In this document: positions 7,418-53,500 of the stretch, piece after piece
Layout of the letters: every line of letters begins with the position of its first letter
Numbering within the stretch: position 1 is the first letter of the stretch
Source of the DNA: Gymnopus androsaceus JB14
Lineage: Eukaryota; Basidiomycota; Agaricomycetes; Agaricales; Omphalotaceae
NCBI GenBank assembly: GCA_009733575.1
Contig: ML769413.1
Location: forward strand, 200,466-264,465
Direction: 5' to 3'
Length of the DNA stretch: 64,000 nt
The notes under the pieces: generated by a model
Databases searched by the model: none
What the model was told of the DNA's origin: nothing
Seen by the model: only the letters and a program-made list of their open reading frames with translations
Translations under genes and position numbers: made by a program

Positions 7418-8167
7418 TTATATACTACATACACAGTACAATGAAAATTTGTTGGGACTATTTTACTTTTTTTTTACTTATCATCTTTCTATCTTGACTC
7501 ACCTCACTTCATGCATGGTTCTCATTTCGCACTCTGTACATTACGTTCACACATCTTTTTTTTTTTGTGTTGTAGTTGGTAGCATTTCTATCCATTTCTT
7601 GCAAAGCGCCATGATTGCTGTCGTGCTTTCCTCCTCTCCCTCGAAAGCCCTCCTTTAGCATTCTTAGCACCGCTCTGGTACGTGATCCCTGAATGACATT
7701 TTCCTTTCTAAACGACGAAAATGGTGACAATGGATCATATGATTCTATGCCCTCAGTACAGGACGTCGACACCGTTGAGTCTAGATAGTCCATCTTGATG
7801 CGTTAACCGATGCACTGGAATTCTATTTACGACGCTCTAAGGAGTGTTCACTGAATATCTGCTTTCTATGTCAAGAGGACGGCGTATTGACCCCAGCCCT
7901 CTTGCTTTTCTTATGATTCAGCATTCTGTCCAACGATTCCCATATTCCTCTCAAGATGGAATTTTATCTCCTTGAAAAAGTCGAGATGAATCTGGTTCGA
8001 AAATCCAAGCGAAAAAGGGTGAAGTGGCCGCTGGTAACGCGCAAAGACAATACTGACGTCTCGGACAGCGATTCGGATAGCGCCAGCACTGAACGGATGA
8101 AACTTGATACTCTGGAGATTCTAGTGTTTGTAAATAGGTGACTAAATTGGATCAAGGAAACCGAAAT
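7418..8167. other. Spacer carrying fragments shared with other F-box cassettes
   Basis: No gene supported. About 7685-7790 (GAATGACATTTTCCTTTCT ... GACGACGAAAATGG) recurs at about 9953-10040 and, in inverted orientation, around 27690-27760. About 7900-8165 resembles the 3' flanks of the other coiled-coil F-box copies (about 10600-10980). The 61-codon open frame at 7956-8141 lies in this flank and is not treated as a gene. Confidence 0.6.
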
Positions 8168-9715
8168 CTACAACCAAGTCAGGTAGCTCAGATATCTCCG
8201 TAAATTCCCCTCATTGAACCAGGGAAACCGTAAGACTACTTTCTGTAATCGGAGGAGTCCATCCACCCCCTCAGTTTCATCATGCAAAGACCGCGAAAGA
8301 ATCATGGGTGTCAATTCTGAAGGGAATTCTTCCATGTCATCCTGAGCACGTAGCTCAAAATTTGTGAGCTTTGGAAGAAGCACAGGATGCCCTTTGGTGA
8401 AAGTTAATGCTTGGAGCAGTTCATCCATATTAAATGCACACTCGTGCATCCGAAGTGACCTGACTGCAGGGAAGAGGGAAAATAGTGCGGTGAAGGTCTG
8501 GGTAAGGTTTTCGTTAGTTTCGCGAAATGGCCAGAATCCAACGAGTGTTAGAGATGATAGTAAAGCGGATGAGCGATGCTGGAAGCTGGTCACATCCACA
8601 AGAAGGGCATCCAAATCTTGGACGTTGTAACGAAGAGTCAGCTCTTCAAGATGAGGTGTGGTAAGGCAGTGTAGAAGGTTCACATCGTTCCCGCTAATCA
8701 TAAGAGCAGAGATATCGAGCGACCTCAACGAAGGTAAAGATATGGAAAGGTAGTGACTGAATAGGACGAAGTCCGGTTCGAAGTCTAACCCCAGATCCAC
8801 TCTGAGATGGACAAGATCTTTACATCGGCGTAGGATGTCCGTATAGGCATCTGGGTCAAAATATGACGGTTTGACAATAGTGCTAGTGATCTTCAGCGAG
8901 GTGAATTGCTCCGCAGGTAGCGCAAATTTTTTCAGAATGGGAGTAGTGTCTTCCTCGATGAGTTCAACACATCGTAACTTGGGTGCTCCCAAGAATGTCT
9001 CGATTTGCGAAGGGACCTCATGGTAGGTCAGGTCCGCATACATGTCATCGTTACTGGAAGAAAATGACGAGATTTCGAGATACACCTCTTCCAATTGAGG
9101 AAGGGATGAGCGAGGTAGACTAAAAAGAGGAATGAAGAATGATATATGCCCCTCCAGATTAAGCAATCGGATTTTGTGACTGAACCCCAAGATATTCTCC
9201 ATGAATTGGCTTGATATAGCCGGAGAAATACCGGATCGAGTGTCGAAGTTGAGATACAGGTCCAAGGGCAGACCTTGACTCCGATGAATCCACTCTTTGA
9301 CCCATCCAAGCTCTGGTATGACTGGTTTGCGGCCCTTCAAAGACAGACATAATTCTGACCAGAGTCGAGGGGTAGCATGAGCAACCTTTCTCCAAGCCAC
9401 GCACACAGCGCAGAGAATAGACGTGTATTGAGCGATACTATGCTCGTACATCGACTTCCCCTCTTCAGGAAGACATGCAAGTTCGAAGATTTCGGAAATA
9501 ATTTCCGGCGGGACTCGTCGAATAGGCGAAAGAACGTTCTCGAGTGAAGCAATCTCGACAAGTTTCGCGTCTTTTTGATGCGTCAACTCGGAAATTTGAC
9601 TTTGGAGTTTCTCTACCTGAGTCTCCACGTCGGATATTCGAGCTCGAAGGAAGGATATATCGGTTGGTTCAAGCCATATTGGCCCTTCTATACGTTGAGA
9701 AAGATACTGCGCCAT
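8168..9715 (-). CDS. Coiled-coil F-box protein with leucine-rich C-terminal region (copy A)
   Basis: Single-exon gene of 515 aa from ATG at 9715 (MAQYLSQRIEG). Residues about 28-65 form a heptad-like coiled coil (ISDVETQVEKLQSQISEL). Next is an F-box of the mushroom type (LSPIRRVPPEIISEIFELAC), then Trp/Leu-rich sequence (VAWRKVAHATPRLWSELC) and irregular leucine-rich repeats with LRSLDIS and LEELTL motifs. F-box proteins usually serve as substrate adaptors of SCF ubiquitin ligases through Skp1. Compared with copy B the last residues differ: the end reads RRYLSYLTWL where copies B and C read EISELPDLVVDLGFLDS, so a one-base change has shifted the frame of the tail. Start chosen at this Met because all copies begin there. 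Function of the family is known only by class; the target is unknown. Confidence 0.85.
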   Translation of the reverse strand: MAQYLSQRIEGPIWLEPTDISFLRARISDVETQVEKLQSQISELTHQKDAKLVEIASLENVLSPIRRVPPEIISEIFELACLPEEGKSMYEHSIAQYTSILCAVCVAWRKVAHATPRLWSELCLSLKGRKPVIPELGWVKEWIHRSQGLPLDLYLNFDTRSGISPAISSQFMENILGFSHKIRLLNLEGHISFFIPLFSLPRSSLPQLEEVYLEISSFSSSNDDMYADLTYHEVPSQIETFLGAPKLRCVELIEEDTTPILKKFALPAEQFTSLKITSTIVKPSYFDPDAYTDILRRCKDLVHLRVDLGLDFEPDFVLFSHYLSISLPSLRSLDISALMISGNDVNLLHCLTTPHLEELTLRYNVQDLDALLVDVTSFQHRSSALLSSLTLVGFWPFRETNENLTQTFTALFSLFPAVRSLRMHECAFNMDELLQALTFTKGHPVLLPKLTNFELRAQDDMEEFPSELTPMILSRSLHDETEGVDGLLRLQKVVLRFPWFNEGNLRRYLSYLTWL

Positions 9716-9823
9716 TCGTGATGGACACTGAAAGAAAAATGGTTGGGCGCTTGTATTAGTTGATGGCGCTTGTCTACTGACTCTATTATAGCAGTGTCCA
9801 AGCAGTCCGTCTAGCACATCCTA

Positions 9824-10053: not shown

Positions 10054-10330
10054 ATGGACTCGTCGGAACTGTGCTCGAGGCTACGCTCTTCCGCGTTCAA
10101 GCTGGAGGATATTAAAGATCTTCTCCGCCTATGCAATAGAGATAACGACAATTGCGAGCTAGAGATCGTGCGTCTTGTACGTCCGGCAGTAGCAGAAGCG
10201 ATTGAAACATCACAAAGAGAAACCGGATTCGCTATGCTCATCTATCTGTAAAATATCCAATGAAATCCCCTGTATCTTCGAATTTGCTAGCGATTGGAAC
10301 CTGTTCCATCGATTTCGGCGGTCATATTTC
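10054..10330 (+). pseudogene. Relic N-terminal part of another F-box gene
   Basis: A 65-codon frame from ATG 10054 begins MDSSELCSRLRSSAF and continues with a Leu/Asp/Glu-rich stretch (DIKDLLRLCNRDNDNCELEI) like the coiled-coil N-terminus of many mushroom F-box proteins. It ends at a stop at about 10250, after which NEIPCIFEFASDWN-like sequence follows in another frame, matching the PPEILxxIFxxAS pattern of an F-box. An inverted diverged copy lies at about 27413-27700. Too damaged to be functional; the class assignment is inferred from pattern only. Confidence 0.55.
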
Positions 10331-10980
10331 CCCTTTCTCTTTTCCTTGATTCTTAAATGCTGCATATAGTCTATGGTACTCAGTGATGGCTGCTTTGACT
10401 CTTATGTTGTTGTGGTCTCAGCTGAGTCTACATATTCCTAATGCATTTGCTGATTTATTGAAATGGCTATGCTTTGAGGAAAGCTCTCTGAATATTTGCT
10501 AACTTGTGCCAGGAGGACGGAACCCTCTTGCTCTGGCTATCTTATTCAGCACTCTGAACGCTGGACGCTGGAAGAATTTTGGATGTCCATCGATTCCCAT
10601 ATTCTCCGATAATTCGTCTCCAGATGGTACTTATTTGATCTTCTTGTTGAAAAAGTCGAGATGAATCCGGGGTTGGAAATTTAAGGACCCGACGTACTAA
10701 ATATGGTCAAAAAAAGCTCCAATGGCGGTGGTCATTGAGAGGGAATGAAGGCGGCCAGAGCTCCGACTCGACGTTTGGGGATTCAGATAGATTAGATTTA
10801 CCAAGGGTGAAGAACCGGCCGCTGGTAGTAACCCCTAAACGTACAAAAACAATATTGATGCGTCGCTCAGACAGTGAATCGGATAGCGATAGCATTATAA
10901 TTAAATAGAGGAAAGTTGAGATTCTGTAGATTTTAGAAGATGATATATGTAGGCATTGAAATAGGCAACTAAATCGGACC
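10331..10980. other. Spacer, 3' flank of F-box copy B
   Basis: No gene seen. Contains sequence related to the flank at about 7800-8160 (for example CCGATAATTCGTCTCCAGATGG, and CGCTGGTAGTAACCCCTAA near 10820, compared with the flank of copy A). Confidence 0.5.
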
Positions 10981-11721
10981 CTATGAGTCAAGGAAACCGA
11001 GATCTACAACCAAGTCAGGTAGCTCAGATATCTCCGTAAACTCCTCCTCTTGAAAGTCGGGAAACCGTAAGAATACTTTCTGTAATCGGACGAGTCCATC
11101 CGCCCCCTCAATTTCATCAGGCAAAGACCGCGAAAGAATCATCGGTGTCAATTCTGAGGGGACTTTTTCTATTTCACTCGGAGCACATAGCTCAAAATTT
11201 GTGAGCTTTGGAAGAAGCGCAGGATGCCCTTTGGCGAAAGTTAATGCTTGGAGCAGCTCATCCATATCAAATACGCAATCCTCCATCCGAAGTGACCTGA
11301 CGGCGGGGAAAAGGGATAATAATGCCGTCAAGGTCTGGGTCACGTTTTCGTCGGTTTGACGAAGTGTCCAGAATCCAACGAGTATTAGAGATGATAGTAT
11401 AGAAGATGAGCGATGCTGGAAGCTGGTCACATCCACAGAAAAGGCCTCCAAATCTTGGAGGTTGTGACGAAGAGTCAACTCTTCAAGGTGGGGTGTGGTG
11501 AGGCAGTGTAAGAGGTTCACATCGTTGCCACTAATACTATGAGCAGAGATATCGAGCGACTTCAACGAAGGTAAAGATATGGAAATGTGTTTACTGAATA
11601 AATCAAGGTCCGGTTCGAAGTCTAACCCCAGATCCACTCTGAGATGGATGAGCTCTTGACATCGATATAGGATGTCCACATAGGCATCTGGGTCAAAATC
11701 TGATGGATCGGCAATAGTGCT
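10981..11721 (-). pseudogene. Coiled-coil F-box gene copy B, C-terminal part, cut off by the KDZ transposon
   Basis: The leucine-rich C-terminal part of copy B, in frame from the insertion point to the stop at 10981, ending ELPDLVVDLGFLDS. The N-terminal part of the same gene lies 10.9 kb away at 22624-23459. Removing the transposon and one copy of the 8-bp duplication ATAGTGCT leaves a single open frame with no other lesion, so the gene was intact before the insertion. The uninterrupted target sequence is seen in copies A (about 8875) and C (about 28985). Confidence 0.92.
11714..11721. repeat. Left 8-bp target-site duplication of the KDZ element
   Basis: ATAGTGCT immediately precedes the terminal CACCTGCTAG of the element and is repeated at 22624-22631. 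Confidence 0.93.
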
Positions 11722-11897
11722 CACCTGCTAGTCCCCACTAATCCCTCCTGTTAGAGGCCTCAATCGTTTTTGTTCCCGTCTAATAGGAGGGTTTACGGGG
11801 TTTACTCAGACAATAGACTAGTATAGATACCCTTAGTATATATTAGGTATTACCATCGTGCCAGAGCATATTTGGCGCCCATAGGCGCCCATTATCT
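11722..11897. repeat. Left terminal inverted repeat of the KDZ element
   Basis: 176 bp matching the reverse complement of 22448-22623 with about four mismatches by eye. Ends in a GGCGCC-rich stretch (TTTGGCGCCCATAGGCGCCC) that could form a local hairpin. Confidence 0.93.
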
Positions 11898-12175
11898 GGT
11901 ATGGCACACAGCGAGCGGGATTTTTTAACCATCCAAACCTTCATTTCAAGAGATATAACTAGACAAAATGTTATTAAACACATGTTTAACTACTCTACGA
12001 GACATCTTCCGCCAGAGTAACAAGAAAATTAGTCATTATTTACAAGATACTACAGTACACTTGACGCTACATTAAGCAGAGACCGCATGCTACATACAAA
12101 TCATCAAAATTACAAGAAGATAGCCTAGCACAACGTGAGAGCGCTACAGGGGATGGTACAGGGAATGCTAATGTC

Positions 12176-14720
12176 CTACTCATCGTCCACATACGCATCC
12201 GACTCACCCTCGTTTTCATCCTCAATACCATCCGCCATTGCCTTACCCTTACCCTTAGCCTTCCGCGCCATGGGGGTGCGAGTCTTTCCCGACATCTCCA
12301 CTGCTTTATCCTTCAGCCTGTCCACGCGTTTCTTCTCCGCCGGCTTCCCCTTCCCCTTCTCCTTCTCCTTCCGCTTCCCCTTCTCCTTCCGCTTCCCCTT
12401 CTCCTTCCGCTTACCTCCCGCAGGCCCCGGAGCCTCTCCCGTCGCAGGTTTTTTCTTCTTACGAGTAGTTTCTTCCTCTTCATCATCACTGGTCGGCTCC
12501 TCATCAGAAACATGCTCCTGAGCCCGCTTACGCTTACGACCACTGTCCTGGCTCTTCTTTGTCTGCTTTACCCTTCCAACTAACGGATCGCGCAGGCCCT
12601 TCAGCTCCCGGACCTCCTTGCTCGAGAGCTTCCGCCAAACTGCCTGACCTTCAGCCCATGCATCATAGAGCTCCTTGACATCCTCAGCTTTGCTAAGCGA
12701 CTGGGGCGACACTCGGGGTATATCAGAAGGCCAGCCGTCAACGGTGACCTTGTGAACGGCAACGATGGTCTCCTCGTATTTGCTGTAAGCCATAGTAAGA
12801 CCCCTGACACCAGTGATTTCCTCTACAGATACGGAGGTCAGTCGAGAAGAATGGTAAATATCAAGAGAAACCTACCCAGTCCACGATTAATAAGCTTCAC
12901 CGTTGCCTTGGCCATGTCCGCCTTCGACAACTTCTTCGACCCCACTGCAACAGAAGGATTAGCCCCTTGCTCTGAACCCACATCGCAGGACAATCACTTA
13001 CATGCTTCTTTTGTGCAAACATAAGCGTCAAAGCATTCGCCTAACTTTGCCAGACTAATGCCAAAGGTCTCCCGCAAAAAGTCATCAGCAGGCCCCGCTC
13101 CAAAGAACCCCTTCGCTGTCTCCTTCTCAAAATCGCCACGCGTAATGACCCCAAAGGAGTTCGACCCCGAGTTAACAAAAGCATAATCGCACTAAGAATA
13201 TACTTAGCCAGAGCCAATAGAGCCGCAACCAATTAACTTACCTGAGCTTGAAGCAAATCATGAGTCTTCGAAGCCGCCTGGGCCATAGACTTGGACGACA
13301 CCCTGCGAACTTTATCCTTTGACTCCCCCTCCTTCATGTCGTAATAATCATCGCGGTACTGCTGCATTTTGACTCGGTCCTTCATGATTGCCATAAGCTT
13401 CTTGTCCTTGCGGAGCGCATCACGAATCTCCTCCAGACTAACGCGATCGCCAGGGCCCGCATCTAAGAGCTTGTTTTAAGATCTATAATCATCAAAAGCG
13501 TCACTGAAGACTAACCTTCATTCAGCTCTTTGCCCTTAAAATGGACCATGATGTTCCAATCGGACACCTTCCTCCTCTGCGTGATTGGCGGAGCGTGCAA
13601 CGCAAGCTGCTTGACGCGAGTAACCTTCACGCCGTTAGCCTCTGCGATTTCCTCCAGCTTTTTCTCGTACGCAGCCGTCGCAGCATTAATTGCGCTCATC
13701 AGGTTATGCTGCTTCTCCGCATTCGAAAGATTAGCAGCCTTCCTTTCCTCTACGCCCATTTTTGCCCTCTTCTTTCGCGATGAGCCCACCTCCTCAGCTG
13801 GAGGGCAGCGACTGGTAGAGGCGTTCTCAAGAATCGGGCCTTCCGAGCCTTGAACCACCGCAGAACTCGAAGCGCCGCGCACGCGTTCAGGTTGCCCAGA
13901 CCCCTCAGAAGTCGAACTGCCGTCCACGCGTTCAGATTGCTCAGACTCTTCAATCGCACCAGAAGCCAAAGATACCTGTGGCCCAGAAGGGCTAATGGCC
14001 TCAGAGGAGCGCGCCGAAACAGCTGGAGGCATGCCACGAAGATCAGCAGGGCCTTTGACATGTTTTGAAGCAGCAGTTGCTGCAGGAATGGAAGCTCCAC
14101 GTGCAAGAGAGGAGTCTCCGGAGCCAGCTACATCGGAAATCTCGACAGAAAAGCCATTGCGAGCAACAGGCTCTTCGAGGCGTTCTGAACCAGCAGCTGC
14201 AGGAATGGAAGCTCCACGTGCAAGAGAGGAGTCTCCGGAGCCAGCTACATCGGAAATCTCGACAGAAAAGCCATTGCAAGCAACAGGCTCTTCGACGCGT
14301 TCTGAACCAGCAGCTGCAGGAATGGAAGGTCCGCGCGCAACCGAGGAATGTCCTGGATCAGCTATAATCTGATTCTGGAGAGAAGGGCCGCCATAGCCAG
14401 TCAGCTGAAGGATATCCAATGATCGAACAGCCGGGGGTTCACCAGACTCCGCGAGGGCGCCAGAATCGAGACGGTCGAGGTAGCTGATGACCTGGCTAGA
14501 CGATGGCCGTTGGATAGTGATTTTGCGCATGGTTTGTGAAGCTTTTTCTACAAAGCACAAAAATCTGATTAAAAAACGCAGAAAAAACCAGAAAGAAAAA
14601 CATACGGATCGCCTCCTGAGTGCTTTTGGACGGCTCAGCGGCGAGAGCTTTTGCTTGGGCTACCTCGGAGGCATCGACATTGATGTTGACCACAGGATCG
14701 ACCCATGAAAGCTTATCCAT
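12176..14720 (-). CDS. Transposon-carried basic nuclear protein with a possible HMG-like segment
   Basis: Six exons join in frame (14720-14606, 14547-13516, 13462-13242, 13191-13002, 12944-12876, 12822-12176) to give 757 aa. The start (MDKLSWVDPVVNINVD) is the first ATG upstream that stays in frame. Exon 2 contains a 39-residue tandem repeat, about 2.5 copies (14050-14340), rich in Ser, Ala and Glu. A Lys/Arg region follows (RKKRAKMGVEERKAANLSNA). The segment around KVSDWNIMVHFKGKELNE up to MKDRVKMQQYRDDYY has the Trp/His/Lys pattern of HMG-box-like DNA-binding folds, but this is tentative. The last exon has VDGWPSDIPRVSPQSL and then long KGKRKEK repeats and an acidic end. Likely nuclear and nucleic-acid binding by composition. 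It is divergent from the gene at 14899 (178-bp gap). The role in transposition is unknown. Confidence 0.75.
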
Positions 14721-14898
14721 CTTGGGCAAAAGAGTGATCAACAAAGTTTGGTGAAATCGGCGTCCCCAAAAAAGCCAATAAAGTTTCGGTGGCGCTGTCG
14801 CACAACGTGGGCTGGGATTCGCAGTGAGCAAAGAATCTCGTAAGTTTAAGAAACTTTACCTTTGGCCACCACCATCCTCCTCCAGATCGACTTGCAAC

Positions 14899-16177
14899 AT
14901 GAACAACAGTAGTAAGTTGTGTTTGAGTTACTTTCATCAAATTCCCAAGTGATGTTTTCTGACAAATCAATCTTTTTTCCAGGAAAAGATGCCGAGCCCG
15001 AGGAACCGGCTGAACTTCCTTTGCCTTCTGCCATCAACCAAGCCCGTCTCGATGCTTTGACAAGGCTCACGAAAGGCGACGGCGTACAGGAAGGTAAGTC
15101 AGTTCTTGATTTTAACCTCACATGCAATCTCAATCGTTGCAATGCAGCGAAACGCGAGTTCTATGAAATCGCCAGAGCTTCTATACTAACTTCCATGCGT
15201 CGGTTCAAGACACGACTGGCATACTCCCAAGACTTAAGTAAGCTGCCTCTTCCTTCAGGTGGACTCGGCGCTAACATAAATTGTAGCTCTTGAGGAAGCA
15301 CGCTATACATTCCAGCAGATCTTAGGTGCTACCGAAAACACGTTTGGTCAGTCAATTTCTTCATGTTTCCCGATATCTTGTAGCCTCATTATTGGCTTAG
15401 CATTTACCGGGGATGCATACGGCGAAAACCAGACCCAAGCATCTGGACAAAGCACCTCTCTCTCCTCTTCGACCCGGCTTCCGCCTCAGACCCCGAAGGA
15501 TCATCACCGTGCTCCACTAATTCCTCCTCCGAATCCTCTCAAACCTAAAACCCCCATAGCCGAACCTGATCTTAAAATCCCTCGAGCAATTCCTCTCATT
15601 GTGTCCGGCGGACGCTTTGCCATGCCCAACTTTGGACCTCCTCTTCCCCAGCCTCCCCTCGATGTCCCTGAAAACTCCGGCCCAGCCTACGTCGTTTACC
15701 TCGGGACCAACAACTGTTCCGGCTTTTTTCGCCACTTCCACAGCACCGACAGCATGCCTGGCGCCGAGACCATTGCGCCTGCAAACTTTCCTGGGCGCCT
15801 CGTCAAATCTTTCCCCACCGTCCAGGCTGCAAAGAGCACGTACCAAGAGTGCCTGCAGACCGGTGTACTTGGCCTGCTGGCCCAGGAGGACACGAAGACT
15901 ACCGTGTACATTGTGACCAAGGGGTTTGAGCCAGGCGTCTACGCATCCAGGTGAGCCTCAATCCTTCTTTGATTCCCGTCAGCAAAATGACCTCCCATGC
16001 AGGAAGAACGCCCTTAAATACGGCCTGAACTGGCGCGGCGGCGAAGTTACCTGCACCGATGGCACCGTGATCCAAGCCAAGGCCATCTTCGAGCTCTGGA
16101 GGTCCCTCGGTCATGTCACGCATCTCCGCTGGGACCGTAAGTTTGTTGTGGACGCGATTTTGAGCGAAGCGGTGTAG
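14899..16177 (+). CDS. Transposon-carried protein with possible RNase H1 N-terminal-like (viroplasmin-type) modules
   Basis: Six exons (14899-14911, 14983-15093, 15148-15237, 15287-15346, 15401-15950, 16003-16177) join in frame with GT/AG ends. The start MNNS is supported by the splice signal 13 nt after the ATG. The N-terminal third is helical and charged, and the middle is Pro/Ser-rich. The C-terminal part has two stretches resembling the RNase H1 N-terminal fold: AYVVYLGTNNCSGFFRHF ... FPGRLVKSFPTVQAAKSTY, and VYIVTKGFEPGVYASRKNAL ... IQAKAIFELWRSLG. These match the known pattern of a YxVxxG-xxPGVY start followed by a FxTxxxA helix. That fold binds nucleic acid duplexes in RNase H1; no catalytic RNase H domain is present. 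The domain call is a judgement from pattern and needs a profile search. Confidence 0.7.
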
Positions 16178-16513
16178 CACTAATATTCATATATCCATTA
16201 ATCGTGTACTCATACATCTCCGACTGTCTTGATATAAATTTTTTTCAAATAAATCGATACAGTCCAAGATATAAGTAGTTACATTAAAAGCACTCGTTGT
16301 GCAAGCCTAGCCAACTGCACTATTCTCGCTTTTGCCAATACGCTTCGACCCGTTACGACACTTGTATATGCCAGGGGGATGCCCATTCCATTGGTCCGTC
16401 CATTTGCTAACGATCGATCAGTTGGCAGTATCTTTGAGAAGGAAACAAGAACGTACTTAATGCGACTCCAACGAGCATCATCCAATATCGTGTCGCGATT
16501 TCTGGCCATAAAG
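16178..16513. other. Spacer inside the KDZ element
   Basis: Convergent 3' ends of two genes; no coding sequence supported. An antisense open frame at 16279-16509 lacks coding character. Confidence 0.5.
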
Positions 16514-16946
16514 TTATTTCACATACAAAAACCAGAGAGGCGAAGCACACTTTAAGTAATATTTGGTATCGGACTCCTTACGCTGGAGCTTAGCTGCTGC
16601 CTTCTCATCGCCGTCCATGGCACCTCTGCGCCTGCAAAGACATATGAGCTTCCGAATGAAAAAAAAAACCCCCTAGAGAGCGTACTGCATCATCCGGCGC
16701 CGTTCCATCTCTTTGAGTTTTTGACCCTTCCTGTATGCACAAGCGAAACAGAGCATATTTTAGAATACACGTATAGTAAACGGCACTCCATTACCTGCAG
16801 GATAATGGAGCGTTGAAGGTTATAACGACATACCGAAGGCGGTAGTTGCGATTAGCCTTTGCACGGCTATTCTTGCGATTTTCTGCTTTTTGCTCCGGAG
16901 TGAGCTGGGACTTCGCAATTGCAGAGGCAGTCCGAGCTCGAGGCAT
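16514..16946 (-). CDS. Small basic protein with a bZIP-like basic region
   Basis: Three exons (16946-16834, 16730-16686, 16631-16514) join in frame to 91 aa. Begins MPRARTASAIAKSQLTPEQK. The stretch AENRKNSRAKANRNYRLRKG resembles the Asn/Arg-spaced basic region of bZIP proteins, followed by KLKEMERRRMMQRRG; no clear leucine zipper follows. The C-terminus is KYYLKCASPLWFLYVK. The gene is too short and spliced to show up as a simple open frame. It lies in the same orientation as the TET-like gene at 17383-19165, but its start is on the transposase side, 437 bp before that gene's stop. It could be a DNA-binding accessory or regulator of the element. I do not recognise a named family. Confidence 0.62.
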
Positions 16947-17382
16947 CCTAAGAGTGTGTTTGATTATGAAATGAGGACAGTTTGCAAGATTGTGAGTTTG
17001 TGATAGTCAAAGTTTTGAAGAAAGACGGGGTTAGTCGCATGGGAAAAATCAAAGCCATTTCACTTTCGATTTAACATTTCACCCAATATCACAATTATTT
17101 TTCTACCGATCCATTGACGCATCTCAGACACAAATATTACTGAGAGAACTTGTAGACAATGTTCATAAGTTTGCCTTGTAAAAAGCTGGAAGCCATTGGG
17201 GGAATCAATGTTGAATAATTGGCCATCGAATGCTTCGATGGCTTGTTTTATGTGTTCGAGTAATTTTGTACCTTGCATGCTAGGGCCTCTGTATCGTAGT
17301 TTCTACAGTGCGCACTTAATTTCAAAACATCGGGGAAGTAACCTAGTATATTTCTATCCTTTGGATGCACATGCGTAAGTAC

Positions 17383-19165
17383 CTATGAGCCCGTCGACGT
17401 GTCCTGAAGCAAATCCAAAGCTACCTCACCCAAATTCTTCCGATAATCGAGCCAAGCCTGGAGCTCAGACGGCGCTGCCAAATCTCTAAACTCTTTATCT
17501 GAACGGAAGCCGTTATGATACCACCTTACAAGACCCGCTGGGAGAAAGAAAGCAAGAGAGTGGCGCCGCTCATGCTTGGCAAGGGGGGTGTTTGAATGAG
17601 GAACAGCGGCGGAGGGCACAAAGATGGCGGTCCCCGGTGGAAACTCGAATGCTAGACCAAGAGACCATGCAATGAAGTGAGCGCTGCGCTTGCAATCGAA
17701 CTTTCCCCCGCTGACTATGGCGCACATGCCGCCAATGTAATTCCAATAGTCGCTGTGATATGCGGTGCTGCTGCTGTGGAGGTTGAAGTGACAGGCCGGA
17801 TAGCAGCAGTTTTGAAAGCTGCGTTGTATTTCGGGGTTATCGACATCTACCACGCTCCTGTCAAGGTTCGTACATAGGGAATGGAGGGCTGGAAAAAGAG
17901 CAAGAAGGCCTTCTGGATGCGAAGTGAGCACAGCAAGCTGCAGAAAGGGGAATCAGCTTACGGTCAACATATCTTGCAATGCGATGTATAACTGGGCTCC
18001 CAAGCGCTTGCTGCAACAGCCTAGCATTATGAGCACTGTTCACGTAGCTCCCTGGCCGCCTTCTGCCCCCTCCAAACCCATACCCAACCCCAATGGTCGC
18101 GTAACGGCCTCTCCGATGATCCAGAAGGCCTGGAGGAAGCTTGAGGCAGCGGAAAAGCCACTCCATAAGATTGTCAAACGCCTCCATGAGCTCAGCCCAG
18201 TTGGGATCTCGAGGAGATGCGTATAGCCCCATTACTCTATGACCTGCGGCGGTTCGGACAATTTGGGTAACGCTGCGCATGGTAAGCTAAGCGGCGGCTA
18301 TTCTACTAGAAGCTGCTTGCTCACCTTCCATCCCTGGCAACGAGCTGCAGCCCAGAGAGCCGGAACACATCGGGGCTAGATACAATGTGGATTGATTCAG
18401 GCACAGCTTGATGGCCAGTCCATGCATTTGGACGAACAGGAAGGCAAGTGGAGCTGATAACTATTACAGTGGCGGATTGAATGCGACGTTGGGCGTATTG
18501 TTTGAGCACAGCGCTACTCGAGCCCATTTCCTCCTGTCTCTGAACGCTGCGCTTCTGGCGCCAGGCATCTCTAGCCTTGAGATTCACCTTCTCTTTTGCA
18601 GAAAGCCCTAAGTAGCGGTTGGGTAAGAGCTCCTTAACGGCAAAGACTCGGCGAACAGGGGCTAGCAGTGTAGCAAGAGGGAGGTGCACCGCTCTAGCTG
18701 CAGGCTGAGGCTGAGAGGAGTGGAGCTTAGGCTGGTCAGTGTCTGCTGGGTCACCTTGCTCATCTGCCAGAGCAATCTCCTGGGCGCTATACGCGCTTTG
18801 GAATAGCGAAAGCGCGTCGATATTTTGAAGCACAAGGTCTGGGCCTAGCTGGTATGGGCTGAACTCTTTCTTATTGCGTAGGACGCGTCGCCCAATTTCT
18901 AGACCTTGGTTAGCAAGCGTTTTACGCAATGGCGCTCAGAAGGAAGCAAAGAACAAAATAAGCGCTCGCCACCTCCCCAATGCCGGGGTGGCGTTGAGCG
19001 AAAGAAGCCTACTACGCAAAAAGAAATACAATATGGAGAATAAGCATACCTGCTGGAGCACCCTCATCGTCTTGATTCCTTTTGCACTTGCCCATGCTGG
19101 AAGGACGGAGAGAGAGAGCCAACAGGCTTGCCGACGTGCCGTGTTTAAATCCGAGAGGATCACAT
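17383..19165 (-). CDS. TET/JBP-family 2-oxoglutarate/Fe(II) dioxygenase, transposon-borne, with frame breaks
   Basis: Enzymes of this family oxidise 5-methylcytosine or thymine in DNA using iron and 2-oxoglutarate. The core reads AGHRVMGLYASPRDPNW, then GRYATIGVGYGFGGG, then the iron site AYHSDYWN (His-x-Asp), FEFPPGTAIFVPSAAVPHSN (distal His) and ERRHSLAFFLPAG (the Arg expected to hold 2-oxoglutarate). All key residues look present. The order and motifs fit the basidiomycete TET/JBP group linked to KDZ elements. The stop is at 17383. Frame has to change at about 17950 (within an A/G run) and about 18900. A 38-nt gap near 18283-18320 is unusually short for an intron. The 5' end near 19165-19200 is unresolved and approaches or overlaps the divergent transposase start. 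Either sequence errors or decay. Confidence 0.82.
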
Positions 19166-19202
19166 GGCTGTTTGAGTCATTGATAATTCTTCCAAGTCTT
19201 GC

Positions 19203-22200
19203 ATGAACACCGCTCGCTTCAATAACCGCGTCAATCGTATAGCCAAAGCCCGCGGCGGTGCGGTTCGTTCCTCATCCAGTCGTATTCGAGGCCCTGCTCA
19301 TGGGTGCCAAGGCTCCGCCAAATCACAGAGAAGGCTGGGAGGCAACTCGACTCAAGTCCTGCGCCGCGCTGATCTTGCTACACTCAACCACAAGGGTGAA
19401 TTGGCTCAGCTTCAAGCTGAGATTTCAGGCACTCCGGACATTACTATTCAACAAACTTACGGTGCTGATTCTCATGACTTCGACATGCCCATGGGTTGCG
19501 ATTATGGCGACTCCAGACCATGCGCGGATGACGACGAGGATTCAGACTGGGAAGCGGAGGATGAGGCTGAGCAGCTAAAAGAGAAGTTGAGGGAGAGAGC
19601 TGGGTATTGCATCCGCCGTGAAGACCATCGTACGCGTCGCGACCGAACTGATCTCCAGTGGAAGCATTGGGAAAGCCAGAGAGAGTTTATGCTGGATGCT
19701 TACATGACTTGGTCTCTCCGTGAAAAGGATGAAAGCGCTCCTCGAGAGGGCCGGAAATTGGAGTCTGAAATGGGTATTACGGTGATAGACCTCTTCGGTA
19801 AGTGACGGCTGCAGCTCTATGGTTGTACCAGCGGCGCTGATAGTTATCAGGTACTAATTACAGGGGTATTCCTCGGTATGAGGGCGATACCTGGCAATCC
19901 CAGTCGCTGCTTCTAGCGGGCCTTCTTCCCACTGCTCCTCTTGCCCACACCTATGCCGTCACTATCCGTACAATGCAGCTTTATCACACTCTGTTCTGTC
20001 GCTGTCCTAAAATTGGAATCCAGCCTTTTGCAAAAACGCTTTGTGACCTAGCTGGTGAAGCGTTTAAGCCTTACATGTCTACCCAACTCTCAACAGCATT
20101 CGACGTTTATTGCTCCCTTTTACAAGGCGTTCGCAAACGAGTAAATGTAGCCCTGGGGCGTGACAGCACGGACTGGCGCATGTTAAACTCATGCCCTCCA
20201 TGCCAATACCGGCTTAGAGAGGATCTACCTTTGGAGGTGCGGATGATTGTGGAGATGGATGGAAATGATTCCCTGCGTCGAGTCGAACGTCGTGGTGACG
20301 CTTCCTTGGTACCGTTGGGTGAGGGTGAGGAGGAAGGCGCGCCGCGACTAGGTCCTTTGAAGGAGCGGAAAGATCACCGAGTAGGGGGAGGGGACTACTT
20401 CCTGTCTCGGGAGGAGGTGGATGCGTGGGACAAAGGCTGCTGGGAGGATGCTCCGGCGGAGGCTCAGCCTCAGGAAATGACAAAGTCACCGTTAGAGATG
20501 CTCTGGGAAGAAGGTCGCTGCGAGGAGCGGTGGAATAATATGAAGGAGCGCAATACGGCTCGCTCAGTTGGAAGGTTCTACGAGTGGGGATGGTTTGTAC
20601 TCTTATGCCGACATATGTTCCTGCTTGTCGCCTGCGACATGATTAGGAGCGGAGAGCAGTAAGTCTCTTGCTTAATCCTTTCAGCCTATATTTGTTGACG
20701 CCTGGAATAGAAGCAAATATCCACTTGCGTGCCTTCACAAATACATGTCCGCAGAGAAGAGAGAGCGTCTTCAGAATGGGGAGGGTAGGCCTGCCGGGAA
20801 GTTGGGGTGCGCCTACGACTGCGGATGTAAGCTGGGAAAAACGGTGAATCGGAGCCCTCTGCAGGAACTAGCTCTCTGGGCATTGTTCTTGCCAATGGTT
20901 GGCCTGATGCACGGCTATGCGCACGAGCGACTATGTCAACTCCTCTTCCTTATGCTTTACATCGCGGGGACGGGACTGGAAGATGGAGAGGGCTGCGAAC
21001 GCTACTTCAGCATCATGAATGCGCTCGCCGGAGTAACTCGACATATGTCTGTGTTCCATCGCCGGCAAGCCATTGCGGAAGTTGCATATGCGCATGACAA
21101 CCTCGAAGCTTACGCAAACCTCAGCCGTTTCATAATCAATAACTATCGCCAGGCGCTGGAGATCTTGGCAACCCGCAACTCCGTCTCACGAAGCATGGTG
21201 CAGGCCGGAATTTCTGCAGAGAATTTCTTTGAGTGGCTCGAGGAGGAAGGGAACTACCTGCGTAGCTTGACTAAAACTCCTCCCTCAGAAACGCTGGAGA
21301 TGGAGTATTATCTCAAGCTCGAGATGTTATATGCCTGCCAGGGCAGACTAATGAAGGTTCGTGCGGTCTGGAAAGAGTACCAGCCTTCTCCAACCGACGC
21401 AGCGGCAACGAGCAGGATAGAGGCCAAGCATCGTAATGAGCAGGAGAACGAACGCAAGCTGATTGCAGATGTTCAGGCTCTGGAGAACAAGCTAGGGTTG
21501 GCTTCACGTTGGAAGGAGGGTTCAGAGGAATGGGAGGCTGCGAAGAAGCTAGTGAGAGAAAGAGACTATAGAAAGGCTTTGGATAAGCTGGAGGGCCTCT
21601 TGGTTGCACGTATCTTTGAGATGACTCGCCTGAATGTGGCTGGAACTGGTACGCTTGTTCATATTTCTTCAAAGATTCTGGCTGACTTTGTTGTACAGGC
21701 TATAAGATGCGTAAACACCTGGCGAATGCGCTGAAAGCCCGGTCAAAGTCTATTCAAGCAGCGATTGAGACGTATAACACAGCTGCGCGCTCCCTGTCGC
21801 CTCCTCGCCAGCTGATCTCCTGGGACGAAATCCTAGACTTTTCCTTCCTTTCGGAGTTCGATATCTTACGGGATGCTCGGGATGATGTACGAGAGAAGAA
21901 ATGGGCCACGCAGAAGAACCGTCTGCTGATGCAGCAGTTCTTCAAGCTGCTCTCTGCGGAGACAGAGCTGACTCGCCTGCATGTTGAGATCCGGAGGTTA
22001 TTGACTTATATGGAGGATGAGGACTCGAAGATTCATGCATGTTCAGAGAGGCTGCGTGAGTCAGATCCTGCGTTGGCTTTGCAAGTCCGTCTCCGAGGCC
22101 AGATGCGCTCACGCTTCAACAAGCTTCACCGACAACGTTTTGGGGCGATTACAAGGTTGGAAGGGTTTCAGCGCGCTAACATGGTCTACTTCAGGCGCGG

Positions 22201-22372
22201 GACGTCAGTGGCAGTTGACGATTTCGTTATTGATGCTGGTGAGCTTGATGTTATGGGAAGTGGTGGCATCGATGAGGGGGGGATTGATCCCGAGTCACTC
22301 CATGCGGAGGAGGAGGCGATCATTGCAGAGGAGGTGGAGCTCATGATGTTTATTGCTGAAGATGAGTCGTAG
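19203..22372 (+). CDS. KDZ (Kyakuja-Dileera-Zisupton) transposase
   Basis: Four exons (19203-19797, 19851-20658, 20711-21648, 21699-22372) join in frame to 1,004 aa with no internal stop. Family hallmarks in order: a short Cys-containing region (CPPCQYRLRED), IVEMDGNDSLRRV (first catalytic-type Asp), YDCGCKLG (the YD motif) and LEDGEGCERYFSIMN (the DGE..ER motif). A charged helical C-terminal half follows and the end is acidic (EEEAIIAEEVELMMF). The N-terminal region is basic and Ser/Arg-rich. KDZ transposases use a DDE-like RNase H-fold catalytic core; this protein keeps the expected acidic residues. It is transcribed away from the TET gene, so both may share the short region around 19165-19203. 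The intron 2 acceptor at 19850 was chosen because the nearer AG gives a stop. Confidence 0.9.
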
Positions 22373-22447
22373 AGTACTTGTACAGTGTTTTCTAGTCCTG
22401 TTTCTTGAAATGAAGGTTTAGATAGTCAAAGAATCCTGCCCGCTGTG

Positions 22448-22623
22448 AGATAATAGGCGCCTATGAGCGCCAAATATGCTCTGGCACGATGGTAATACCT
22501 AATATATACTAAGGGTATCTATACTAGTCTATTGTCTGAGTAAACCCCGTAAACCCTCCTATTAGACGGAAACAAAAACGATTGAGGCCTCTAACTGGAG
22601 GGATTAGTGGGGACTAGCAGGTG
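22448..22623. repeat. Right terminal inverted repeat of the KDZ element
   Basis: Reverse complement of 11722-11897 with about four mismatches; ends GGACTAGCAGGTG directly before the second ATAGTGCT. Confidence 0.93.
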
Positions 22624-22631
22624 ATAGTGCT
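22624..22631. repeat. Right 8-bp target-site duplication of the KDZ element
   Basis: ATAGTGCT, the same eight bases as 11714-11721; the host F-box sequence resumes with AGTGAGC. Confidence 0.93.
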
Positions 22632-23459
22632 AGTGAGCTTTAGCGAGGTGAGTTGTTCCGCAGGTAACGCGAATTGTTTCAGAATGGGATTATTGTCTCT
22701 CTCGATGAGTTCAACACATTGTAACTTGGGTGCTCCCAAGAATGTCTCGATTTGCTGAGGGACCTGAAGATGGGCCAGGCCCTCTTCCTGGATACGGGGA
22801 AAAGACGAGATTTCAAGATATACCTCTTCCAATTGAGGAAGGGATGAGCGAGGTAGACTGAAAAGAGGAAGAAAGAATGATATATGCCCCTCCAGATTGA
22901 GGAATCGAAGTTTGTGGCTGAAACCCAAAATGGTCTCCATGAATTTGCTTGATAAAGCAGGAGAAATACCGGATTGAGTGTCGAAGTTGAGATACAGGTC
23001 CAAGGGCAGACCTTGACTCCGATTAATCCACTCTTTAACCCAACCAAGCTCTGGTATGACAGGTGTCTGGTCCTTTTCCAGGGAAATGCATAATTTGGAC
23101 CAGAGTCGAGGGGTAAGATGAGCAGCCTTTCTCCAGGCCACGCACACAGCACAAAGAATAGACGTGTATTGAACGATACTATGCTCGTACATCGACTTTC
23201 CCTCCTCAGGAAGACATGCAAGTTCGAGGAATTCGGAAAGAATTTCCGACGGGACTCGTCGAATTGGTGAAAGAACGTTTTTGAGTGAAGAAATCTCGAC
23301 AAGTTTCGCGTCTTTCTGACGCGTCAATTCGGAAATCTGACTTTCGAGGTTCTCTACCTGACCCTCCACGTCAGACAATCGTGCTCGAAGGAAGGATATA
23401 TCGGTTGGTTCAAGCCATATTGGCCTTTCGATACGTTGTTGAGAAAGATACTGCGCCAT
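22624..23459 (-). pseudogene. Coiled-coil F-box gene copy B, N-terminal part, cut off by the KDZ transposon
   Basis: Starts at ATG 23459 (MAQYLSQQRIERPIW). It has the coiled coil (LSDVEGQVENLESQISEL), the F-box (LSPIRRVPSEILSEFLELAC) and the first leucine-rich repeats up to SLKLTST, where the transposon interrupts. With the element in place the frame meets a stop a few bases inside the terminal repeat, so a truncated protein that keeps the F-box but loses most of the target-binding repeats could still be made. The remainder of the gene is at 10981-11721. Confidence 0.92.
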
Positions 23460-23605
23460 TCGTGGACTGAAAGAAAAATGGGGCTAGGCGCTTGTAGCTG
23501 GCTCGAATACAGGCGCTTATTCTACTTCCTTCAGTACCCTATAATAAATTCGAGTCAGAATTTGACCCTATATATACAGCTGCCAGCACCGTCTAGCACA
23601 TTTCG
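23460..23605. promoter_or_regulatory. Short bidirectional promoter of an F-box gene pair
   Basis: Only 146 bp separate the start codons of copy B (-) and the F-box/propeller-like gene (+). A TATATATA stretch (about 23570) lies 36 nt before the plus-strand ATG. The same divergent spacing is kept next to copies A and C, where the partner is only a relic. Confidence 0.6.
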
Positions 23606-28153: not shown

Positions 28154-29727
28154 ATGGCGGCACTGGCACAGTACCTTTCTCAACGCCGTATCGAGGGGCC
28201 AATATGGCTTGAACCAACCGATATTTCCTTCCTTCGAGCTCGAATATCCGATGTGGAGGGCCAGGTAGAGAACCTCGAAAGTCAGGTTTCCGAGTTGACG
28301 CGTCAGAAAGACGCGAAACTTGTCGAGATTGCTTCACTCAAAAACCTCCTTTCACCTATTCGAAGAGTCCCACCGGAAATTCTTTCCGAAATCTTCGAAC
28401 TTGCATGTCTTCCTGAAGAGGGGAAGTCGATGTACGAGCATGATATCGTTCAATACACGTCTATTCTCTGCTCTGTGTGCGTGGCTTGGAGAAAGGCTGC
28501 TCATGCTACCCCTCGACTGTGGTCCAAATTCTGTTTGTCCTTGAAGGATCGCAAACCAGTCATACCGGAGTCTGGGTGGGTTAAAGAGTGGATTAATCGG
28601 AGTCAAGGTCTGCCCTTGGACCTGTATCTCAACTTCGACACTCGATCCGGTATTTCTCCGGCTATATCAAGCCAATTTATGGAGAATATCTTGGGTTTCA
28701 GCCGCAAACTTTGATTGCTCAATCTGGAGGGGCATATATCATTCTTCCTTCCTCTTTTCAGTCTACCTTGCTCATCCCTTCCTCAAATGGAAGAGGTGTA
28801 TCTCGAAATCTTTTCCTTTGATAATGACTTGAATGCTCTGGCCTATCTTCAGGTCCCTCAGCAAATCGAGACGTTCTTGGGAGCACCCAAGTTACAATGT
28901 GTTGAACTCATCGAGGGAGACAGTGATCCCATTCTGAATCGATTCGCGCTGCCTGCGGAACAACTCACGTCGCTGAAGATCACTAGCACTATTGTCGATC
29001 CATCAGATTTTGACCCAGATGCCTATGTGGGCATCCTATGTCGATGTAAAGACCTCGTCCACCTCAGAGTGGATTTGGGGTTAGACTTCGAACCGGACCT
29101 CGTTTTATTCAATAAACACCTTTCCATATCTTTACCTTTGTTGAGGTCACTCGATATCTCTGCTCATAGGATCAGCGGCAACGATGTGAACCTCTTACAC
29201 TGCCTCACCACACCTCACCTTGAAGAGTTGACTCTTCGTCACAACCTCCAAGATTTGGAGGCCTTTTCTGTGGATGTGACCAGCTTCCAGCATCGCTCGT
29301 CCGCTGTAATATTATCTCTAATACTCGTTGGATTCTGGACACTTCGTGCAAACCGACGAAAACATGACCCAGACCTTGACGGCATTATTATCCCTTTTCC
29401 CCGCCCTCAGGTCACTTCGGATGGAGGATTGCGAATTTGATATGGATGGGCTGCTCCAAGCATTAACTTTCGCCAAAGGGCATCCAGTGCTTCTTCCAAA
29501 GCTCACAAATTTTGAGCTATGTGCTCCGAGTGATAATGACAAAAGTCCCCTCAGAATTGACACCGATGATTCTTTCGCGGTCTTTGCCAGATGAAATTGA
29601 TGGGGTGGATGGACTCCTCCGATTACAGAAAGTAGTCTTACGGTTTCCCGACTTTGAAGAGGAGGAGTTTACGGAGATATCTGAGCTACCTGACTTGGTT
29701 GTAGATCTCGGTTTCCTTGACTCGTAG
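28154..29727 (+). pseudogene. Coiled-coil F-box gene copy C, nonsense and frameshifted
   Basis: Collinear with copies A and B from MAALAQYLSQRRIEG to ELPDLVVDLGFLDS. Three lesions by comparison with the paralogues: a TGA at 28712-28714 where the others read CGA (Arg), an extra base at about 29349 (CTTCGTGCAAACC versus CTTCGTCAAACC), and a further one-base shift near 29540. The CGA to TGA change is a CpG transition. Coiled coil, F-box and about the first 187 residues remain open, so a truncated F-box protein is possible. Orientation is opposite to copies A and B. Confidence 0.88.
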
Positions 29728-30258
29728 GGTCCGATTTAGTTGCCTATTCTCAATGCCTATTTCTAGAATCTACAGAGTACAAGTTTCCTCCGATTCGCTG
29801 TCCGATTTGAATTGTCTTTGTGCTTTACCAGCGGCCGGTTCCTCGCCCTTGGTAATCTAGGCCACCCGAATCGCCAGAGGACGATGGACCTTCGACCTTC
29901 ATTCTCTTCCATCGCTGCTATTCACTGAGTGTACCTCGAAGTCCTTTTGCTTCTCTTACCCATCGTGGCGAATTCATTTATTCAAGTTTGCCCAAAAATC
30001 GCGTCAGACTCGCAAGGAAGCGCGTATGGAATCAACAATTGGAAACTTGTTTGTTGGGAAGGAAAGTTTCAACGGTTGGATTGGAAGCTCTTCAAATTTC
30101 GTAGATTTTCAAACGAAGAATCAATATGTGCGAATACTCGCAATTAGTTAATAAAACGCTTGTAAATACGTGAGACTAGAGCAACAAAATGTTAGACCTT
30201 CTTTCCAAAATGAGCCGCAAAAGCAAGTACACGAATAGAATACTCACTAAACAATCCA
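29728..30258. other. Spacer, 3' flank of F-box copy C
   Basis: The first 150 bp resemble the 3' flanks of the other F-box copies (CCAGCGGCCGGTTC...CGCCCTTGGTAA compared with 10800-10830). No gene supported. Confidence 0.5.
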
Positions 30259-31812: not shown

Positions 31813-33634
31813 ATGAGGCTCTCAGCTTACTTGGTTGTTCCTGGTGCAACTTCAGCTGTCTTAGCAGCTACCACTTTCCCTCCTCCTCCTCTCGGACAGG
31901 GATTCCAACCACCATCAGATCTTCTGGCCAATGTCGATTTTTTACAAGCACTCAGTAGCCTGAACGCATCTCTAACGAGTGTTACCCAGACGGGCGAGTG
32001 CAAATTTGGACAGATCGGAGCCAATACAACCTCGTACTCCATTGGTCTCTTTGACACAAAATCTATTCTTTTGGACTTTGAGCATAGCTCGTCCACGCTC
32101 GCCGCTCCTGGTACATCACAGGTCGATCACAACAGTATCTATCGTATTGGAAGCGTGTCGAAGCTCTTGACTGCTTACCTGTTCCTCATCGAAGCGGGTG
32201 AGGACGTTTGGGATCATCAAGTCACTGACGTCGTGCCTGAGCTCGAAGCGGCCGCACAGAGTTGCAATGCACAGACAGACGCGGTGGACTGCGTAGACTG
32301 GACTAATGTCACACTTGGAGCGCTTGCAAGCCATATGGCAGGAATAGCCAGGGAATGTGATTGAAATTTTTTACTTCTCTTCATGATCTTGTACTGACTA
32401 TGTTGCATAGTCTCCCAATCAGGCGAACTGATTAATAATAACCTTACCTCGGCTCAGCTTGTTGCATCTGGTTTTCCGCCTCTGAACAGCAGTGACGCAC
32501 CACAGTGTGCTACAAATGCCACGGACCCTTGCTCTAGAGAAGGTAGTTTCTATTTCGATTGCAAGGATGAACTGCATATTGACAAAGAAATAAGAATATT
32601 TCCAGGGCGTTACTCAGCTTCACCCAGTATTCAGCCCATTCGGCTCGCCCTCATACTCGAACGTTGCGTACCAGATCCTGGGGTATGCTCTTGAAAACAT
32701 CACCGGCGAATCTTTCGAGTTGATGTTCCAGAGAGACCTGGTTGGGAGATTAGGGCTGAATGGAACCAGTTACAGTGAGCCCGTTAACTCTACCGAGGCC
32801 GTTATTCCGTTCAGTATCAGCGGAAGTGCCTGGTCCTACGAAGTAGGCGATGAGACTCCTGCTGGCGGCATATACTCCACTCTCGCCGATCTAATGAGAA
32901 TAGGACAGAGCATGCTGAACAATGAAGTGCTATCTCCCTCCACCACTCGTAGCTGGATGAAACCCGTGGCACACACAGCGAGCCTCCAGATGTCGGTTGG
33001 CAAGCCTTGGGAAATCATCCGAACCTCCGTCGATGGCCGCGTCGTCGACCTCTACACCAAATCCGGCGACGTTGGTGCCTACTCCTCCATGCTCGTCATT
33101 ATTCCAGACTACAATGCTGGCTTTGCAAATTTGGCTGCAGGCGGAGATGCCAGTCAAGTCAGCGCCGTCACTGCGGACCTTATCATCGACGCATTCCTGC
33201 CCGCTTTGGAGCAAGCAGCTCGAGAACAAGCCATGGCGAAATTGGCTGGCAGCTACAGATCGTTCGATTTGAACTCCTCCATCGAACTCTCCATCGACGC
33301 TGGTAAGCCTGGTCTGGGCATCAAGTCTTTCATCAGTAACGGCTCCGACGTCATTGAAGTGGACTCGGACATCAGACTTTACCCGACAGGGTTGAACGCG
33401 CAAGTCAACTCGACGACGTCCAAGGCCTCATATCGCGCAGTTTTTCCTCAGTTGACCTCGACGGGCACTGGTGTTGTCTCTCAAGCCTTGAACAATGCTA
33501 CATGGCTCGGCTTTGACTCGATCACGTACAACGAAATTGGGATTGACGAATTCTTGTTCACGCTTGATGCTGATGGGAGTGCTACGAGCATTTCTCCTAG
33601 GGCGTGGGAGTCCGAACTATACAGGGAGGAGTGA
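31813..33634 (+). CDS. Secreted serine beta-lactamase-related hydrolase, copy 1 (intact)
   Basis: Three exons (31813-32356, 32411-32542, 32595-33634) join in frame to 571 aa. A signal peptide opens it (MRLSAYLVVPGATSAVLAAT). The class C beta-lactamase/penicillin-binding fold motifs are all present: SVSK at residues 114-117 (nucleophile Ser and Lys), PSYSN (YxN motif) in exon 3, and YTKSGDVGAYSS (the K-S/T-G motif). The C-terminal region is a beta-rich extension. In fungi this family acts on esters, amides or lactams; the substrate here is unknown. The acceptor of intron 2 (after AAATAAG at 32594) was chosen because it restores REYFQGVTQLHPVFSPFG, whereas the AG eleven bases further shifts the frame. 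Many N-x-S/T sites suggest secretion and glycosylation. Two damaged copies follow at 35083 and 37043. Confidence 0.88.
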
Positions 33635-45037: not shown

Positions 45038-46118
45038 CTATACAACAGCCATATCTTCAGTGTCTAGCCTGAACAGCCCCGCACCGACATTATGCAGCGC
45101 CGTAAATCCACCGATGGTCACAGCGTATAGTTTACCTTTGTCCGATTCCGTTCTTCCAAACGCTACCGATATAGCCTTCGTATAGGTGTCAATATCCGGA
45201 CCTCCTGCAAGCACCAAAACCTCCTTTGTTTTATGATCAACCCTCACAAACTGGTTCAGCGAGAGCAAAGCCGCAAATATATTACCCTCCTTATCAAGGG
45301 CAAACTCTGCCACTGTGGTCAAATTCGACACCACGACCTTTGGCTCCCCCACAGGGAGACCACTACTGGGATGGATAGGAACCCGCGCGATGATGCCTTG
45401 TTGAAAGTTGCTGAGATAAAGGTACTTTGTGGAGTCGTTTTGTGGCTGGAAGAGGTGAATTCCATAGACACCATTGCCACTGTCGAGAGGATAAATTGTA
45501 GTATATGAGTTGTTGATAGCCATATAGTGGTGTCCAGTGTTGACGTTCAGGATGTTGATAACGCCCAATGCACTATCCCCGACGTATATCAGCCCTTCCT
45601 CCTTCGAAATCACCTCCATTCCATTTAAGATGCGTGCATTCGGGAAGTGAACTACTTCCCTGACGCGAGCCGGATGTTCGGGGAAGCCGGTCATGTTGAC
45701 ATGGAAGATAGAGGGAGATCCTAGAACATCTATGTGGGTCCACACAGAGAGGTTACTGGCGGCAACGTAGAATTGGTCGTCCTCGACTTCGAGGATACCG
45801 TGTACAACCGAGTATCCCTCAAAGGTGTGGATGTGTCTGACGGACCCGTTGATCAAGTCCGGATCGACTTGATAGAGATTTGGAGAATTGTCAAAGCCGA
45901 CAATAGCCTCGCCACTTTTACGGATGGCAAGCTTCTCCAAACTGACACTGGAGTTGAAGTGGTAGATGGTTTCGACTTTCACAGGAACTATGGAGACAAT
46001 AGTTAGACTGGAGTATATGAGAAGATGCCTAATTACTACCTTCATACCCCGATGCATTCTGACAAAGGATACCATTAGTAGCACTGAGGATGATAGCGAA
46101 TAAGAGAGATATACGCAT
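45038..46118 (-). CDS. Secreted SMP-30/gluconolactonase-like beta-propeller protein, copy 1
   Basis: Two exons (46118-46040 and 45987-45038) join in frame to 342 aa. A signal peptide opens it (MRISLLFAIILSATNGILC). The rest consists of repeated blades with strand patterns such as LEKLAIRKSGEAIVGFDNSP, NGMEVISKEEGLIYVGDSAL, GVYGIHLFQPQNDSTKYLYL and VAEFALDKEGNIFAALLSLN. The layout resembles extracellular fungal proteins of the SMP-30/NHL-like six-bladed propeller type. Some members are lactonases; the metal-binding residues were not verified here. Several N-x-S/T sequons fit secretion. The donor after GAAG was chosen because it restores GYEVPVKVETIYHF. Copy 2 lies 0.9 kb upstream in the same orientation. 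Confidence 0.83.
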
Positions 46119-52180: not shown

Positions 52181-52367
52181 AGATCTGAAGGTTCGAAGGT
52201 GGCATCTACGAGCTTGTACCACTACTTTTTTTGATTCCAGAAAAATGGACATGTACTAGTACCGTGTACGGATACTTACTGAACGCATTAAAAACTGATG
52301 TAATATATACGTGCATCTTTTCTTCTGCGAGGTCTACGAGGTCTAATTCTATGACGGCGGGCCACTA

Positions 52368-53144: not shown

Positions 53145-53500
53145 CTTTCTTTACTTTTGCTCACCTGCAATTGATTTCTCCCAATGTTAATACCCAACAT
53201 CTGTCTTTGAACTATATAGTGATGCGTGGATATGATATATAAAGAATGTGTAGCCTTATGAGAATGGCCTTTGGAACTATCCAGGCCTGCACTCTTAGCT
53301 ACTAGCTTGTATCATTGGGAGAAAGACCGGGAGGTCTTTGGGTCCCAGCGCCAATTTCCAGTATACACAGTCAGCTGCGATTCCCACTATGTAGGAGTGC
53401 ACGACGCATCCAGCTACTGTGGATACCCCCTAAACGTAGGAGGTGCACGGAATACTAAAAGTGATAAAATAGCCAGGTGGCATTGAAAGTGAACATAGAC
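53145..53500. other. 5' region of the hypothetical gene; no other gene
   Basis: TATATAAAG at 53236 may be a TATA box for a minus-strand or plus-strand transcript. A 71-codon open frame at 53271-53486 shows no domain. Confidence 0.35.

Follow-up and report, generated by a model that had tools for sequence, protein, structure and literature searches.

The link between TET oxygenases and KDZ transposons was reportedly first drawn in Iyer 2014. Here we analysed a 64,000-nt stretch of DNA (the window) from the mushroom Gymnopus androsaceus (Agaricales, Omphalotaceae), in which positions 11722-22623 hold a KDZ element carrying genes for a transposase (K), a TET-like oxygenase (T) and three companion proteins (A, R and B). 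Complete TET-bearing transposons of 11 lineages, including Kyakuja and Zisupton, have been described together with their ends and target duplications, and escape from silencing has already been proposed for them (Kojima 2025, PMC12730594). The portion of that paper considered here also mentions a third protein for TET+ families of Harbinger and states that the function of transposon-borne TETs lacks experimental validation. An earlier sequence-only reading of this window had likewise noted that KDZ elements with linked TET genes were already known in basidiomycetes.

The present element resembles the TET+ Kyakuja of Agaricomycetes in joining a KDZ transposase and an oxygenase in one element and in its CA..TG termini. 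It differs in its ends, as Kyakuja is described with 7-bp duplications and no inverted repeats (PMC12730594) where we found 8 bp and 176-bp repeats, and in an oxygenase that is without the CcTET-type marker residues. For the KDZ elements of Marasmius oreades, a related mushroom, inverted-repeat motifs have also been described; no oxygenase cargo is mentioned in the part of that account compared here (PMC8290104). A five-gene KDZ cassette is not described in the compared part of the main text of Kojima 2025 (PMC12730594). What is new here is a conserved gene cassette with three companion genes, ends unlike those of Kyakuja, and an oxygenase outside two published sets of marker residues.

A complete element inserted in a host gene

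The following features define the insertion:
11714..11721, no strand: left target site duplication, ATAGTGCT (from the sequence and the restored joint)
11722..11897, plus strand: left terminal inverted repeat, 176 bp, starting CACCTGC (repeat alignment)
22448..22623, minus strand: right terminal inverted repeat, 176 bp, ending GCAGGTG (repeat alignment)
22624..22631, no strand: right target site duplication, ATAGTGCT (from the sequence)
10984..23483, minus strand: host gene resembling leucine-rich repeat (LRR) genes, split by the insertion into frames 10984-11727 and 22617-23483 (joined-flank frame)

The raw inverted-repeat match spans 177 nt (98%, 11721-11897 / 22448-22624). Because its outermost matched pair is one base of the target site duplication on each side, the terminal inverted repeats (TIRs) measure 176 bp, with 4 mismatches between 11722-11897 and 22448-22623. 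Both this length and the 8-bp duplication had been claimed by the sequence-only reading and were borne out. When the flanks were joined with a single copy of ATAGTGCT, a 530-residue open frame was restored on the minus strand across the joint, and three paralogues within the window align straight through it: 29759-28164 (91%), 8152-9755 (87%) and 61641-62958 (84%). The restored frame matches LRR_4 at 25 bits, slightly under the cut-off of 27, and the paralogues at 8152-9755, 28164-29759 and 61641-62958 form a local family of LRR-like genes. On a neighbouring scaffold, C31:192066-193619 repeats window positions 10221-11775 at 99.7%, with gaps as the only differences; this repeat takes in 54 bases of the left TIR, is followed by N, and is likely a duplication of the left flank introduced by the assembly.

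Gene content of the element

Five predicted genes lie between the TIRs, in keeping with the complete five-gene set in one bounded element that had been proposed:
19203..22372, plus strand: gene K, KDZ transposase, 1004 residues (exons 19203-19797, 19851-20658, 20711-21648, 21699-22372)
17383..19095, minus strand: gene T, TET-like 2-oxoglutarate (2OG)-Fe(II) oxygenase, 488 residues (hand model; exons 19095-19050, 18904-18325, 18272-17962, 17912-17383)
12176..14720, minus strand: gene A, 757 residues (hand model; exons 14720-14606, 14547-13516, 13462-13242, 13191-13002, 12944-12876, 12822-12176)
14899..16177, plus strand: gene R, RNase H1 N-terminal-like, 332 residues (hand model; exons 14899-14911, 14983-15093, 15148-15237, 15287-15346, 15401-15950, 16003-16177)
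16480..16946, minus strand: gene B, small basic protein (hand model, stopping short of the 3' end; exons 16946-16834, 16730-16686, 16631-16551 and a fourth from 16501)

Gene K has four exons and a single stop, at the end of the frame, and its protein matches the KDZ profile PF18758 (E value 1.3e-58; 198.7 bits, cut-off 26.6). It carries three acidic motifs of the KDZ catalytic core, MDGND at residue 334, AYDCGC at 502 and DGEGCERYF at 559, which differ at single positions among relatives. The uninterrupted four-exon transposase of the earlier reading therefore stands, as does its assignment to KDZ. The genome carries a large KDZ load, with at least 161 KDZ-domain matches across many contigs (150 of 335 candidates scored).

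A public G. androsaceus JB14 model of 282 residues has the same sequence as the C-terminal portion of T and begins within intron 2 of our hand model; a 476-residue relative (P0002) covers 98% of the T query, which favours the longer, 488-residue form. The core of HxD, distal His and Arg that the sequence-only reading had picked out was recovered as H365, D367, H418 and R429, equivalent to H159, D161, H212 and R223 of the public model. These residues are kept among aligned relatives (H159 in 78 of 78, D161 in 76 of 78, H212 in 79 of 80 and R223 in 74 of 80), and by fold comparison the T protein is predicted to have a TET-type double-stranded beta-helix. The suggested PF20515-type profile gave no match to T.

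Marker residues were compared by ungapped counts from the first metal His. Asn stands five residues after it in 78 of 79 T relatives, and Cys eleven residues after it in all 80; the Asn matches that of TET2, where it contacts the base. AG-type TETs, whose markers are those of Kyakuja and CcTET, carry Gly or Ser at the first of these places and Asp at the second (Kojima 2025, PMC12730594), a pattern that T relatives do not show in this count. Nor do they show the PE-type HxE, the position being D in 76 of 78 and N in 2. CcTET of Coprinopsis cinerea itself is 15% identical to T, which has Asn at CcTET Gly331 and Cys at CcTET Asp337 (ungapped from HxD). By these residues, T is predicted to be a new oxygenase branch outside the published AG and PE markers. 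The only PF12851 (Tet_JBP) match in the genome search, C425:9685-9906 (27.1 bits, under the cut-off), is perhaps another TET branch.

Among the companions, R of the window copy scores 16 bits against PF01693 (RNase H1-N; cut-off 21), and three of four pieces from relatives score above the cut-off (29-33 bits; the fourth 14.8). The RNase H1-N-like label given to it earlier thus falls short for the window copy and is upheld in relatives; a module of this kind suggests that R binds RNA:DNA hybrids. Gene B has relatives at the same place in six loci (C585, C90, C667, C201, C12 and C798). The bZIP-like character once ascribed to it was not recovered, as no bZIP domain was found and the sole match, to DUF3043 (E value 0.0027), lies under the cut-off. 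In the gene A protein we found no known domain; a weak fold hint indicates that it may hold an HMG-like stretch.

Other copies, gene order and constraint

Genes were joined into loci at gaps <8 kb, with 46 of 283 candidates scored in the search for K and 69 of 122 in that for A. Counting the window element, at least three insertions show both ends together with an 8-bp duplication and pieces of each of the five genes. The other two, C90 and C201, show CACCTGC ends at both sides, 8-bp duplications TGAGAATC and TCAAATGC, and pieces of the five genes between their ends. C585 and C667, where one end was located, also carry pieces of each of the five genes, arranged as in the window; six further loci share this arrangement for A, R, T and K. 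Gene order and orientation are kept at 33 of the 36 loci with at least two of the genes, the window's own counted (the departures are C174, C385 and C843); a few of the 36 may represent duplicated haplotypes, C106 and C544 being nearly identical in appearance.

All five genes are under amino-acid constraint, with the proportion of nonsynonymous differences (pN) below that of synonymous differences (pS) in 35 of 35 gene-by-locus comparisons. Against C585, pS was 0.68 and pN 0.19 for T (471 codons), and 0.67 and 0.14 for K (989 codons). Against C90, the corresponding values were 0.69 and 0.27 for R (288 codons), 0.69 and 0.24 for A (230 codons), and 0.80 and 0.13 for B (53 codons). The weakest constraint, expressed as dN/dS, was 0.54 for A against C667 (51 codons), followed by 0.39 for K against C41 (66 codons). 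These ratios are rough, since silent sites are near saturation and alignable stretches alone were counted. Identity in T rises and falls with identity in K (r = 0.83; 49 pairs, 11 loci), and the correlation was 0.935 over 36 pairs (0 of 5000 permutations) when two loci with <100 transposase residues were excluded.

We also looked for traces of methylation. Over 25 T loci, two that duplicate the window stretch being excluded, the observed/expected CpG ratio was lower where a stop falls within the last 150 aligned residues (0.53 vs 0.71; n = 11 vs 14; p = 0.0006). Methylation followed by deamination would produce this difference, and age would also explain it. The host genome has 5 C5-methylase matches, and in Marasmius oreades CpG methylation is reported on repeats and, at a lower level, on active transposons (PMC9674265).

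Proposed function and alternatives

We propose, with a probability of roughly 0.55, that this is a complete KDZ-superfamily DNA transposon whose transposase moves it via its TIRs and whose TET-fold oxygenase oxidises 5-methylcytosine (5mC) on the element, lessening silencing. The proposal builds on the ends, the duplication, the restored host frame, the recurrent five-gene order, the constraint and the parallel divergence of T and K, all of which we observed. KDZ transposases bind and join element ends, and the K protein would likewise bind the inverted repeats and join them by strand transfer. The T protein would oxidise 5mC on element copies, so protecting its own copies from silencing by host methylation, and A, R and B may act as nucleic-acid-binding helpers. 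It is a speculative and rather improbable extension that the five form a joint kit (K, a TET of unnamed type whose TET2-like Asn would read the methylated base, an RNA:DNA-hybrid binder, a small basic protein and an architectural protein resembling HMG) acting on the TIRs, stripping marks locally and opening the element, as self-targeted anti-silencing kept by selection.

Several observations weigh against a protective oxygenase. T is matched only in part at C90 (residues 16-59 and 313-434) and C201 (313-408), and has in-frame stops at C585 and C667; the window copy is therefore the only one of these five shown uninterrupted. A T match occurs in 78 clusters; in 51 of them, mostly distant relatives of T, no partner gene stood among the matches listed, the K and A searches being capped at the numbers given above. 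At six loci the search returned A, R and K without T. When the gap was read, T was absent from its usual place at five of them (C614, C129, C342, C225 and C187), and a decayed T was found at the sixth, C534; the best-matching piece of the transposase at these loci reaches 54-61% identity. Broken copies may have lost CpG through age, and CpG decay also creates stops. The ratio of the window element, 0.85, lies between those of its flanks (0.96 and 0.80) and gives, alone, no sign of protection. The T protein scores 14.3 bits against the curated PF12851, below the cut-off of 34.9, and for this reason we call it TET-like. At E ≤ 0.01, PF12851 is matched by 15 of 80 relatives (best 1.2e-6) and the general 2OG family PF13640 by 7 of 80, and the public T model matches neither.

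With T missing or decayed at six loci and stopped in C585 and C667, the oxygenase is dispensable and not needed by every copy; its absence from loci that keep A, R and K means that a conserved set either lost the TET gene or gained it. The sequence-only reading had named copies without the cargo as refuting its gene set. C90 and C201 agree with it in their ends and five-gene pieces; related loci without the oxygenase make the cargo variable, and in that reading's own terms the five genes are not an obligate set. Related copies with uninterrupted, decayed and missing T in one genome make the silencing idea addressable within a single strain, and the conserved companion genes are fresh candidates for how a TET-like enzyme could be aimed.

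It is possible, if unlikely, that the oxygenase works in trans and unaimed, oxidising 5mC on repeats generally, so that the copy encoding it would gain only diffusely. Oxidised 5mC is also reported on retrotransposons of Coprinopsis and Laccaria, where non-target-specific action has been proposed (Kojima 2025, PMC12730594), and the G. androsaceus genome keeps copies whose oxygenase is missing or broken. However, the T-K covariation and the constraint on amino acids suggest that the benefit is linked to the element itself.

About equally doubtful is the view that the family is a Zisupton-type TET+ element already held in the Kojima 2025 supplement or Repbase. The 8-bp duplication, the inverted repeats (at three insertions here), the KDZ transposase and the oxygenase are all shared with Zisupton, and TET+ Zisupton elements are reported in Auriculariales and Agaricus bisporus (Kojima 2025, PMC12730594). 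Compared by description rather than by tree, those of Auriculariales are of AG type and that of Agaricus bisporus is of PE type, with HxE where T has HxD. Moreover, a search of the PDB with the T profile returned no CcTET chain at E ≤ 10, although AG-type TETs are called close CcTET relatives in the portion of the paper compared.

We think it improbable that the substrate is something other than 5mC (RNA, protein or a further-modified base), with help to the element unrelated to 5mC silencing: in the fold comparison, DNA-acting TETs score 5-8 Z units over the enzymes put forward for this view, and the conserved Asn is like that of TET2. That unrelated elements came to be nested by chance or that the assembly is at fault, for which the left-flank duplicate on the neighbouring scaffold could be cited, is very improbable given the restored host frame, the paralogous empty sites, the same gene order at 33 of 36 loci and three insertions with both ends.

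Other features of the window

At 52001-64000, the CpG ratio falls to 0.33 (at 56001-60000), with TpG/CpA in excess, the pattern expected of old methylated repeats. Finally, frames 32594-33631 (plus strand) and 45041-46141 (minus strand) match a beta-lactamase-type domain (PF00144, E value 2.6e-17) and, marginally, doublecortin (PF03607).
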